From contig NZ_CP064655.1 in assembly GCF_018141525.1 (NCBI RefSeq), positions 2,450,501-2,514,500 of the forward strand: DNA of 64,000 nt, in the 5' to 3' direction. The stretch comes from Miltoncostaea marina. GTDB lineage: Bacteria > Actinomycetota > Thermoleophilia > Miltoncostaeales > Miltoncostaeaceae. Each line of letters starts with the position of its first letter. Positions within the stretch are counted from its first letter, which is position 1. Of the stretch, positions 4,555-35,294 are shown in pieces. A program made the position numbers and the translations under genes. Under the pieces are notes generated by a model. It did no database searches. It saw nothing but the letters and a program-made list of their open reading frames with translations, and was not told the origin of the DNA.

Positions 4555-5222
4555 CGCGCCGGCGAGGATGACGACGAGGGCCGCGAAGGTGGTCTCGGTC
4601 AGGGCCGGCCCCGCGTCACGGCGGCGAGGCTACCAGCGGCGGCCCGGGACGCCGGCCGGCCCCGCGAACGCGGCGCGCCCCGGCGCGGGCGCGGGGCTCG
4701 CCGCCCACTTGGGCGATCGGCGTCCGCCCAAGTGAGCAGACCCGCCAACGGCCTGCGGATCATCATCGGAACGCCCCCCCTCGGCCCCGGTGCCGCCCGC
4801 GGCCGGTTCCGTCCGCGAGGCCCCCGCTCACTTGGGCGATCGGCGTCCGCCCAAGTGAGCAGCCCCGCCGACGGCCTGCGGATCGCGGTCGGAACGCCCC
4901 CCCGGCGGACCACGGGGCCCCGGTTGCCGCCGGCGGCCGGTTCCGTCCGCGAGGCCCCCGCTCACTTGGGCGATCGGCGTCCGCCCAAGTGAGCAGACCC
5001 GCCGACGGCCTGCGGATCGCGGTCGGAACGCCCCCCCGGCCGCGGCGCACCCTCGTGCCGGCCGAGCAGCCCGGGCCGTACGGGCCCCGCCTCGCCCCAG
5101 GGGGTACCGCCGGCCGGGGGCCCGACGCGGAGGGACGGGACGGGATCCCACGCGGGCTCCCGCGGCGGGGGCGAAGAGCGCGGCGGCGGTACGCTCCGCG
5201 CCCCGTCCGTCGAGGAGGCCCC
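4555..5222. repeat. Gene-free stretch with three REP-like hairpin repeats
   Basis: About 670 nt without a credible gene. It holds three copies of a 75-nt core unit at about 4703-4780, 4826-4902 and 4960-5036 (spacing 123 and 134 nt). Each begins with an inverted repeat: arm GCTCACTTGGGCG, 9-nt loop ATCGGCGTC, arm CGCCCAAGTGAGC. Arms are at 4826-4838/4848-4860 and 4960-4972/4982-4994; copy 1 (4706-4715/4725-4734) has lost the outer 3 pairs on its left side. A conserved tail ending GGAACGCCCCCC follows each hairpin, and a shared CCGGTTCCGTCCGCGAGG block precedes copies 2 and 3. This resembles repetitive extragenic palindromes. The last ~60 nt before 5223 carry a TACGCT box and a GAGGAGG ribosome site for the next gene. 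Confidence 0.85.
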
Positions 5223-32217: not shown

Positions 32218-32244
32218 GAACGACCGCCGCCCGCGTCGTATCCG

Positions 32245-33830
32245 TCAGAGCCCACCGTTCTTGCCCCACCGCTGCGCGATGTACTTCTGCAGCTCGATCT
32301 CGTCGGTGATCTCCCGGGTGCCATTGCCCACGCGCACAGAGAACCGGGCCGCCTTCTGGTGTGAGCCGTCCTTCGCGACCGTGGTCACGGTGGCGTGGAC
32401 GGGATGCGCCGACGGCTTGACGTGGACCCGGCACACGTCCGCACCGCCCACCTCGTGGATCTGGCTGGTGACGCTGGTCGCCGCTGCCGCGCCGACGGCG
32501 TTGAGCACCGCCTGGTGCAGCGCGAGCTGGAAGAGATCGGCGTCGTCCTCGCCCGGCTTGCGCAGCGTCAGGTAGTCGGCCTCCAGCCCCACCGGATCGG
32601 CGTCATCGGCGACGCCGATCAGGAGCGTCCCGCCCTCCGCGCTGTTGACGAAGGCGGCGATCGTCTTGAGCGTGGCCGTCTCGATCGCCTTCGACTTCTC
32701 GCCCTTCACGACGTCCCGGCGGAAGGTGGACCTCCACTCCAGGTGCGCGTCTTCGACCCGCCCCAGCAGTTCGCCGATCGGGCAGTGCTCCTGATTCGCG
32801 ACCTTCGCCCGTCCGTAGATCAGCGGCAGATAGCTCGCGATGACGTCCGCCCGCAGATCGTCGGAGCCGACGACGCGATAGGTGAGGTCCTGGTTGCTCG
32901 ACAGTCGCTGGATCAGGGCGTCGGTGTAGCGCTTCTCGAAGCCGATGCCGAAGTTCTCGCGCGTGTTGGCGGCAGCCTGCTGCTGCAGGGTCACGTCGGC
33001 CACCATGTTCTCGGCGACGGCGTCGAGGTGCAGCCGGTCGGCGTCGGTGAGGTTGAGCCCGTAGCGCTCGTTGAGCTGGTCGATGATCGTGGAGAGCGAC
33101 TCCTGCTCGGGCTCGACCCGCTTGCCCGTTCCTCCCAGGCTCGCCGGCAGGCCGGTGTCGGTCCCGTCGAGCGCGATCGACCCCTCGAACGTCAGCTCCT
33201 GCTTCAGATGACTCAGGTCGACGGCTTCGCCCAGATCGATCTGCTCGCCGGGAGCGCGCCGGATCATCCGGGCCAGTGCCTTGCCGAAGAGGTACTCGCG
33301 CTCGAGCGCGACGTCGCCGAAGGTGACGAGCTGGCTCAGGAAGGCGTACGTGCGCACGAACGCGTCGAGGGCGTCGCGGAAGCCCTCCTGGCGCTCCTCG
33401 CTCAGATCGGCGTGGAAGCGGTCGACCGCCGGCTGCAGGGCCGCGTGGATGCGCCCGTGACTCGACCGCGTCGGCGGCGCCATCAACAGGTCGGTCATGC
33501 GCTCGACCTCGTCCCTCCGGATCACCCCGTACTCGTCGACCCGCGCGCGGGTGTCGTAGAGCAGGTTCGGGTCGGTCGGGGTGGCGGTGGTCGCGCCGTA
33601 GTAGGGCTCGAAGGCCCTCTGGATGTCCTCGGCGTCGTTGCTGAAGTCGAGGACGACAGTGCCGTCCTTGCCCTCCATCGTGCGGTTGAGGCGCGAGAGC
33701 GTCTGCACCGCGGCGATGCCGGTCAACGTGCGGTCGACGTACATCGCGTAGAGCTTGGGCTGGTCGAAGCCGGTCTGGTACTTCTCGGCCACCACGAGGA
33801 TCTGGAACTCGTCTGAGTCGAACCGAGCCT
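32245..33830 (-). pseudogene. 5'-truncated type I restriction endonuclease subunit R (HsdR) remnant
   Basis: The remaining ~525 codons encode the C-terminal part of an HsdR-like protein: helicase motif V region (AEKYQTGFDQPKLYAMYVD) and motif VI (QTLSRLNRTM), the helical HsdR C-terminal region, then an AlbA_2/Schlafen-like domain (FVNSAEGGTLLIGVADD). The nuclease domain, Walker A and DEAD/H box are missing. HsdR-like sequence (RFDSDEFQILVV) stops abruptly near 33825 where a stop and unrelated DNA begin. There is no ribosome site or hsdM/hsdS next to it. Codon use and GC look lower than in the flanks. It is a relic of an acquired restriction system. Confidence 0.85.
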
Positions 33831-33887
33831 GTCACCGCTCGGAGAAGCTCCGTGGAATCGGACTGAGCGAGTCGGGACGGGCGAAAC

Positions 33888-33994
33888 GCGATACGGGAAG
33901 GCGAAGGGCTGTGAGACGGTGGCGTTGATATGCGCGAAACGGTAGCGTCGGTACGTGCGAAACGGTAGCGTCAACCAGCGCGAAACGGTAGCGT
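33888..33994 (+). repeat. 23-bp-period repeat array upstream of the DUF4143 gene
   Basis: Three perfect copies of GCGAAACGGTAGCGT start at 33934, 33957 and 33980, exactly 23 nt apart, separated by 8-nt variable spacers. In register upstream lie a degenerate copy at 33911 (12 of 15 matches) and a weak one at 33888 (about 10 of 15), so there are five units with decay away from the gene. The last copy ends 15 nt before the ribosome site of the ATPase gene. The period is just over two helical turns, so all copies face nearly the same side of the DNA, as in an operator or iteron. The array lies where hsdR is cut. Confidence 0.9.
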
Positions 33995-34019
33995 GATACC
34001 GGGCGGCCCAGGAGCGCGA

Positions 34020-35294
34020 GTGGACGACTACGTCCGCAGGGTGGTCGATGACGAGCTGGACGAGCTGATCACGGCGCTCCCGGCGATCGCGCTCGAGGGC
34101 GCGAAGGCGGTCGGCAAGACCGAGAGCGCGGCGCGGCGGGCCCGGACGGTGCGACGGCTGGACGACCCGGAGCAGCTGGCCATCGCCGAGGCGGATCCTT
34201 CGGCGGCGCTTGCCGGGGCGGCGCCCGTGCTGCTCGACGAGTGGCAGCGCGCCCCGTTCCTGTGGGACCGCGTGCGCAGGGCGGTCGACGAGGGCGCCCC
34301 GCCGGGCGGCTTCCTGCTCGCGGGATCCGCGGCGCCCCTCACGGCTCCCGCGCACTCCGGCGCCGGGCGGATCGCCACGCTCCGCATGCGTCCGCTCTCA
34401 CTCGCCGAGCGGGCGCTTGCGACGCCCACGGTGAGCCTCGAGCGGCTGCTGCGCGGTGACCGCCCCGATGTGGCGGGACAGAGCCCGGTCGGGCTGGAGG
34501 ACTACGCGTCCGCGATCGTCCGCTCGGGCTTCCCCGGGATGCGCGGGCTGAGCGGCCGGGCGCTCCGCGCCCAGCTCGACGGGTACCTGCAGCGGCTGGC
34601 GGAGCGCGACTTCGAGGAGATCGGCCACCGGGTCCGGTCACCGCACATCCTCCGGCGATGGATGACCGCCTATGCGGCGGCCTCGGGGACCAGCGCCTCC
34701 TACGAGGCGATCCGCGACGCGGCCACCGGCGGCGAGGGGCAGAAGCCGGCGAAGACCACCACCGGCCCCTACCGCGAGGCGCTCGAGCGGCTATTCATCG
34801 TCGAGCCGCTCCCGGCATGGCTACCGAGCCGCAACCGGCTCGCGCGCCTGTCCGCGGGCCCGGTCCACCACCTCGTCGATCCGGCGCTCGCGGCGCGCCT
34901 GCTCGGCCTCGATGTCGACGGCCTGCTCGAGGGCCGACCGGCCGGCCCGCCGCTCCCGCGCCGCGGGCCGCTGATCGGCGCGCTCTTCCAGTCGCTCGTC
35001 ACCCAGAGCGTGCGGGTCTACGCGCAGCGCGCCGAGGCGCGGGTCGCGCACCTGCGCCTGCACTCGGGCGCGCGCGAGGTGGACCTCATCGTCGAGCGCG
35101 CCGACGGGCGGATCGTGGCCATCGAGGTGAAGCTCGCCCGGGCCGTCGGCGACGACGACGTGCGCCACTTGCACTGGCTCGCGCAGCAGGTCGGCCCGGA
35201 TCTGCTCGACGCCGTCGTGGTCACGACCGGGACGGAGGCCTACCGCCGCCGCGACGGGGTCGCCGTCGTCCCCGCGGCGCTCCTGGGCCCGTGA
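34020..35294 (+). CDS. DUF4143-type ATPase (AAA_14) with PD-(D/E)xK-like domain
   Basis: A 424-aa protein. The N-terminal AAA_14 domain has Walker A GAKAVGKT (residues ~25-32; usual form GPxxVGKT, so Pro is Ala) and Walker B PVLLDEWQRAP. The C-terminal DUF4143 region ends in a PD-(D/E)xK-like core, with Asp355 (REVDLIVE) and Glu369-x-Lys371 (VAIEVKLA). This family is widespread, often acquired, and its role is not settled; nuclease or DNA-handling activity is inference. The GTG at 34020 has the ribosome site AGGAG 5 nt upstream, which outranks the GTG at 33993 inside the last repeat. It ends directly against the stop of the convergent acyl-CoA ligase gene. Confidence 0.85.
   Translation: MDDYVRRVVDDELDELITALPAIALEGAKAVGKTESAARRARTVRRLDDPEQLAIAEADPSAALAGAAPVLLDEWQRAPFLWDRVRRAVDEGAPPGGFLLAGSAAPLTAPAHSGAGRIATLRMRPLSLAERALATPTVSLERLLRGDRPDVAGQSPVGLEDYASAIVRSGFPGMRGLSGRALRAQLDGYLQRLAERDFEEIGHRVRSPHILRRWMTAYAAASGTSASYEAIRDAATGGEGQKPAKTTTGPYREALERLFIVEPLPAWLPSRNRLARLSAGPVHHLVDPALAARLLGLDVDGLLEGRPAGPPLPRRGPLIGALFQSLVTQSVRVYAQRAEARVAHLRLHSGAREVDLIVERADGRIVAIEVKLARAVGDDDVRHLHWLAQQVGPDLLDAVVVTTGTEAYRRRDGVAVVPAALLGP

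Follow-up and report, generated by a model that had tools for sequence, protein, structure and literature searches.

Results

A phased 23-nt array precedes the DUF4143 gene. The direct repeats that stand immediately before a DUF4143 ATPase gene in the window, the whole 64,000-nucleotide stretch of DNA analyzed here, are probably the operator of that gene itself, on which the encoded protein would dock to repress its own expression. On the basis of sequence covariation, the DUF4143 protein appears to read its own array with both its helix-turn-helix (HTH) and its C-terminal nuclease-like domain. The array comprises five copies of a 15-mer, three of them perfect, that lie in one register with a period of exactly 23 nt between 33888 and 33994. 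Tandem Repeats Finder called it independently with a period of 23 and a score of 96. The initial annotation had reported three perfect units, two decaying copies extending the register upstream, and an array end 15 nt before the ribosome site of the DUF4143/AAA_14 gene, and each of these statements agrees with the following features.

33888-33902, plus strand: copy 5, 10/15 match, most decayed
33911-33925, plus strand: copy 4, 12/15 match
33934-33948, plus strand: copy 3, perfect GCGAAACGGTAGCGT
33957-33971, plus strand: copy 2, perfect GCGAAACGGTAGCGT
33980-33994, plus strand: copy 1, gene-proximal, perfect GCGAAACGGTAGCGT; the last copies are the most constrained across loci
33989-33994, plus strand: TAGCGT in the last copy, putative -10 element (motif columns 11 to 16, TAnnnT)
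34010-34014, plus strand: AGGAG ribosome site, read from the sequence; the array ends 15 nt upstream

In the whole 3.37-Mb genome, no other site matches the 15-mer with one mismatch or fewer and one isolated site matches with two, which argues that the array is not a chance occurrence.

The architecture of the array is conserved while its letters are private. A search for the 15-mer at 23-nt spacing had been proposed as a check on the array. When it was run with the exact 15-mer pair against 42 family genomes, it returned only the genome of origin, and the 15-mer had no match in viral contigs. This search was uninformative because each locus has a repeat sequence of its own, and conservation lies in the architecture rather than in the letters. 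The architecture was assessed with a lag test that was not seeded with any motif sequence and that scored the best self-match lag among 12 to 60 in the 160 nt before the gene at 74 homologous genes, the window included. The best lag was 23 (50.5 loci, ties shared) or 46 (17.5 loci) at 68 of the 74 loci (z = 15.9), and the mean lag-23 score was 13.0 of 16 compared to 7.7 for other lags. No lag-23 signal was seen at these loci far upstream, within the gene, or after its stop codon. Thus, 68 of 74 homologues carry the array at their own promoter. The hosts, as named in records that include many metagenome-assembled genomes, belong to the Actinomycetota, Chlorobiota, Chloroflexota, Gemmatimonadota, Planctomycetes, Proteobacteria, and others.

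A phased motif model, seeded with a window-like sequence and applied with homologue start codons inferred from the alignment, found at least two copies at 66 of 74 loci, most often three, and arrays in the clade hold 2 to 7 direct repeats. The consensus is roughly G-C-G-A-A-A-Y-G-G10-T11-A12-G-Y-G-T16-A17, and the motif is confined essentially to the region upstream of its own gene. No array was recognizable by motif at two loci (L189 and L191). Identity within a locus exceeded identity between loci at columns 1 to 5, 9, and 13 to 15 (z of 5 to 17; up to 16.6), and columns 10 to 12 and 16 were universal across loci. The spacers had been described as unrelated; this holds within the locus, and at spacer columns 19 to 22 the within-locus identity across 59 loci was at background, no higher than expected. 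The copies are therefore not alike through mere tandem duplication, because the motif columns agree and the spacer does not. Tandem duplication or slippage was accordingly rejected as the origin of the array, since the spacers have not been homogenized.

Homologues with 31 to 34% identity, found on viral contigs, plasmids, and phage scaffolds, have the 23-nt period in different letters. One viral contig (L108) carries seven copies of GGTCCAAATGATATATTAAAATC and another (L110) five copies of GAGAAATTGCCAAATGAAAATTC, both at exactly 23 nt, and the same period precedes plasmid and phage-scaffold homologues from Lentilactobacillus, Collinsella, Bacteroides, Mycobacterium, and Azotobacter. On a tree in which twelve tips were labelled by hand from the lag-test result, a fully supported clade of 35 rows has the 23-nt array almost without exception. 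Outside this clade, periods of 22 and 32 to 33, as well as perfect palindromes, were found before other DUF4143 genes, and 36 of 62 wider-family loci had a significant direct repeat. The regions upstream of L115, L126, L134, and L137 contain perfect or near-perfect palindromes (scored arms of 16), either instead of direct repeats or together with them. Among paralogues in one genome, a unit matches its own array at 15 to 16 of 16 positions and the other arrays at 11 or fewer. Three actinobacterial genomes (G095, G051, and G070) have 8 to 14 DUF4143 matches each, with arrays that are mutually unlike where they can be resolved.

The DUF4143 protein combines an AAA ATPase, a winged HTH, and a PD-(D/E)XK-like domain. 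The gene starts at GTG 34020, which is backed by alignment with more than 70 homologues. The gene and the residues discussed below are as follows.

34020-35294, plus strand: AAA_14/DUF4143 gene, 424 aa; AAA ATPase, winged HTH, and PD-(D/E)XK-like domain; PADLOC PDC-S01
34098-34121, plus strand: Walker A GAKAVGKT, residues 27 to 34; G27, G32, and K33 invariant in 72 homologues
34749-34760, plus strand: residues 244 to 247 (A-K-T-T) at the start of helix 245-257; putative recognition helix for motif columns 9 and 13 to 15
35061-35063, plus strand: H348 in a hairpin of the C-terminal domain; predicted reader of motif column 4 (covariation z = 11.5)
35076-35132, plus strand: E353/D355...E369-x-K371, PD-(D/E)XK-type catalytic residues by fold match; invariant in 72 homologues

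The protein exceeded the Pfam cutoffs for DUF4143 (PF13635; 84.6 bits versus 28.1) and AAA_14 (PF13173; 41.3 versus 27), and the PADLOC PDC-S01 profile PDLC04790 matched it at full length (E = 1.6e-80, residues 1 to 422 of 424). NCBIfam contained no family for it, and a PDB sequence search with it gave no match. In its AlphaFold model (pLDDT of 93, pTM of 0.93), helix 245-257 begins with residue 245, and residue 348 is flanked by strands 341-347 and 353-359. In structure comparisons, residues 1 to 296 matched 2qen (Z of 15.2, rmsd of 4.2 over 250) and 2fna (Z of 14.2), the next matches being CED-4 and plant NLRs; unrelated AAA structures scored Z of 9 to 10, below 2qen and 2fna. This part of the protein is therefore STAND/MNS-like, an AAA/NB-ARC domain followed by a winged HTH in the fold of 2qen and 2fna. 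The C-terminal domain alone matched EndoMS (Z of 9.2), McrC (Z of 8.6), and Can2 (Z of 8.1), with PD-(D/E)XK folds at the head of its match list. This fold, with D355, E369, and K371 invariant in 72 sequences, places the domain in the PD-(D/E)XK superfamily as a predicted nuclease. We infer that the protein consists of AAA, winged HTH, and PD-(D/E)XK domains and contacts bases through its HTH as well as through its nuclease-like domain.

Two protein residues predict letters of the array. Every variable protein column was compared with every motif column at 54 loci (7,820 tests) by permutation, with overall protein identity regressed out. The top pair was residue 245 with motif column 9 (z = 25.4). 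In this training set, K245 went with a base other than T at column 9 at 28 of 29 loci, and R245 went with T at 19 of 23. Residue 348 with column 4 was the second pair (z = 11.5): H348 was accompanied by G (11/11), K348 by C (10/11), R348 by C (7/9), W348 by G (5/5), and A348 by A (4/5), giving the rule that H, Q, or W predicts G, K or R predicts C, and A predicts A at base 4. Residue 244 covaried with column 13 (A with G; z = 7.6), and the spacer columns had weak covariation scores. A further pair, S127 with column 1 (z = 10.6), lies away from the presumed DNA-binding surfaces and may be noise.

The rules were then applied to sixteen held-out loci that had taken no part in their discovery. The residue 245 rule held at 15 of 16 loci (Fisher P = 0.007), and the residue 348 rule held at 10 of 12 (permutation P = 0.0009). 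A tree of 70 tips requires at least 21 changes at residue 245. Column 9 was as predicted in 15 of 19 independent K/R245 pairs, with none opposite, and both bases were as predicted in 16 of 20 independent residue 348 pairs, with none swapped, although the Y and M classes used in this analysis were partly read from the same data. The exceptions included four of the 23 training loci with R245, one held-out R245 locus (L182), and two held-out loci with Q348; the loci that break the rules are L065, L066, L076, L082, L053, L182, L187, and L194. The window obeys all rules, with A244, K245, and H348 facing G13, G9, and G4. A locus of the same genus whose protein is 69% identical (L093) has R245 and K348 and reads GGACC...TGTAG, as predicted. 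Because the private letters of the array are predicted by residues 245 and 348, both at held-out loci and in independent pairs, it is the encoded protein that is indicated as the reader, and this recognition is supported by covariation that was held out and phylogenetically controlled. The suggestion in the initial annotation that the array is a multi-protein operator is thus supported, in that 23-nt arrays precede nearly all homologues and their letters covary with two positions of the protein.

Direct repeats before genes are often sites for a separate regulator, and a host protein of this kind could bind the repeats here, or the repeats could be neutral tandem duplications. Either idea is scarcely credible given that the letters covary with DUF4143 residues in independent lineages and at held-out loci, that the same architecture recurs in many phyla, and that the spacers differ among copies.

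The last copy of the array coincides with a putative -10 element. No consensus sigma-70 -35/-10 pair was found in 33840-34060. Motif columns 11, 12, and 16 fall on the three best-conserved positions of a -10 element (T, A, and T), and the proportion of copies with an intact TAnnnT declines from 87% among last copies to 69% among second-last and 42% among third-last copies. The expectation that the gene-proximal copies are under stronger constraint is borne out by this gradient. The last copy probably serves as the -10 element as well, with a predicted transcript start near 34001. In the clade of the window, start codons lie 2 to 60 nt after the last motif copy; homologues whose gene starts 2 to 7 nt past the motif would have a leaderless mRNA. 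At three distant homologues (L105, L109, and L176), the array ends just before a sigma-70 -35 hexamer.

These positions bear on the direction of control. The same protein on the same array could activate its gene, or both repress and activate it, which would make a bistable, rapidly induced defense gene. All of the evidence for binding is common to this explanation and to autorepression. The placement of the array immediately upstream of the -35 hexamer at the three distant loci is typical of activators, but it suits a repressor equally. The window promoter has no -35-like hexamer, as is often the case at activator-dependent promoters, and the Thermus DUF4143 gene TT_P0211 was induced 6.6-fold by plasmid DNA when Argonaute was present (PMC4406477). 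Against activation, the last repeat in the clade of the window coincides with the only possible -10 element and the start codons follow closely, so that bound protein would block the polymerase. We consider self-activation rather unlikely for the window, and autorepression is the best guess for its clade.

Under autorepression, one protomer would dock per 23 bp. A step of 23 bp amounts to about 2.2 turns of the helix and would set successive protomers on a spiral path along the DNA, an arrangement that AAA-type oligomers can adopt. The gene-proximal copy would also be the -10 box in the clade of the window, so that an occupied array would shut out RNA polymerase. Such negative autoregulation could hold a potentially harmful ATPase-nuclease at a low level, and expression would be released once binding is lost, for example through a rearrangement driven by ATP or through titration in the course of an infection. 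Private sequences would allow several DUF4143 paralogues to operate in one cell without cross-regulation.

The array and gene lie in an accessory segment. Comparison with a genus-mate (G019) identified 32218-35294 of the window as accessory DNA lying between two core genes in convergent orientation. At the same place, G019 has only a terminator-like spacer of about 46 nt between the convergent flanking genes, and another genus-mate (G020) has a different, 6.3-kb insert. The site is an insertion hotspot (window 32218-35294; L103 12857-12903, empty; L104 3551-9847, 6.3-kb insert). The segment consists of an HsdR-AlbA_2 gene on the minus strand, the array, and the DUF4143 gene, whose stop codon abuts the stop codon of the next gene. 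The first of these genes (32245-33842, minus strand) encodes a truncated C-terminal fragment of a type I restriction HsdR protein fused to a Schlafen AlbA_2 domain. It lacks the N-terminal part, which breaks off about 50 nt ahead of the array start, and DNA similarity to HsdR ends near 33825-33842. Elsewhere in the window, at 4783-5040, a 134-bp unit is present in almost two copies with 97% identity.

The initial annotation had also considered that the array might be an iteron of a small genetic element. As an origin of replication or a partition site (centromere), the array would be served by the DUF4143 protein as initiator or partition ATPase. In favor of this reading, the repeats resemble iterons in length and period (22 to 23), iteron proteins regulate their own genes, the weaker fold matches include Orc1/Cdc6 bound to origin DNA, and some homologues are on plasmids and phage scaffolds. 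However, the homologues occur as single copies before chromosomal genes in unrelated contexts, and several of the plasmids that carry homologues have other typed replicons. The window unit is chromosomal, where an iteron-type origin pairs an array and an initiator with a replicon that depends on them; in its accessory segment, no replication or partition gene, repeated ends, or element end was found. The iteron reading is not supported and is highly improbable.

A further alternative is that the array is an address for the nuclease, marking a site at which the PD-(D/E)XK domain cuts or is held, in target choice, mobility, or self/non-self discrimination, with regulation being secondary. It draws on the invariance of E353, D355, E369, and K371, on the prediction from sequence that the nuclease-like domain itself reads repeat base 4, and on the movement of the unit between phyla. 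However, the array is promoter-proximal and on one side only, cutting its own promoter would be self-destructive, and neither a second array nor an inverted end or a target duplication was found. We judge this explanation very unlikely. A transposon end or a small mobile element was also considered and rejected: there is no inverted repeat in 33600-34300 and no second array, and comparison of the borders with the empty site, which shows only that 32218-35294 is accessory as a whole, revealed no repeat and no transposon-type ends. The paired terminal repeats or target duplication of a transposon or insertion sequence were thus not found around the unit.

Discussion

The proposed self-matched operator belongs to a very common gene. 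Passages of a 2026 survey rank PDC-S01 as the fourth most common defense candidate in prokaryotes, describe it as combining an ATPase with a PD-(D/E)XK domain, and give validation as pending for most such candidates; these passages mention no upstream array, operator, or DNA-recognition code for PDC-S01 (PMC12988326). Our literature search on DUF4143 and PDC-S01, in which subscription papers were thinly covered, found no description of upstream arrays and no described mechanism for PDC-S01. The view of the initial annotation that no repeat-plus-DUF4143 unit had been described is consistent with this search, and a self-matched switch of a very common candidate phage defense gene seems not to have been described before.

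A self-matched operator with a residue-to-base code would be a first handle on PDC-S01. The code indicates the DNA that is bound, the residues worth mutating, the probable mode of control of the gene, and how many paralogues can coexist. With it, operator sequences would be predictable from the sequence of the protein, and the diversity found in nature supplies a set of orthogonal DNA-binding regulators. More tentatively, and with some doubt, DUF4143/PDC-S01 proteins overall might be self-addressed NLR-like switches, each with a private, decodable address read by a winged helix and a nuclease-like domain. The array would then be a resting platform that keeps the ATPase-nuclease inactive, array and protein together would form the sensor, and other clades would use 22-nt, 32/33-nt, or palindromic versions.

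The unit can be compared with known systems at several levels. The window protein matches the PDC-S01 profile over its whole length, making the window gene a candidate defense gene. With the archaeal STAND/MNS-type Walker ATPases (2qen and 2fna), and more distantly with CED-4 and the NB-ARC domains of NLRs, it has in common an AAA domain followed by a winged helix; unlike 2qen and 2fna, it adds a C-terminal PD-(D/E)XK-like domain, and its winged helix apparently recognizes a DNA operator. McrC, EndoMS/NucS, and Can2/Card1 resemble the C-terminal domain at the level of the fold only, with conserved acidic and lysine residues, whereas in the DUF4143 protein one hairpin residue predicts a base of the operator of its own gene.

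Iteron and RepA-type operators and self-repressing toxin-antitoxin and partition operons place phased direct repeats before the gene for the binding protein and combine autoregulation with private specificity. For repABC, autorepression by RepA is named in the title of PMC4492784. The DUF4143 unit has in common with these systems the phased repeats before the gene of the predicted binding protein, probable autoregulation, and a private specificity that would avoid cross-talk. In contrast to them, it is a single gene for a chromosomal ATPase-nuclease that lacks both a replicon and an antitoxin partner, and its arrays keep a fixed 23-nt period with locus-private letters across phyla.
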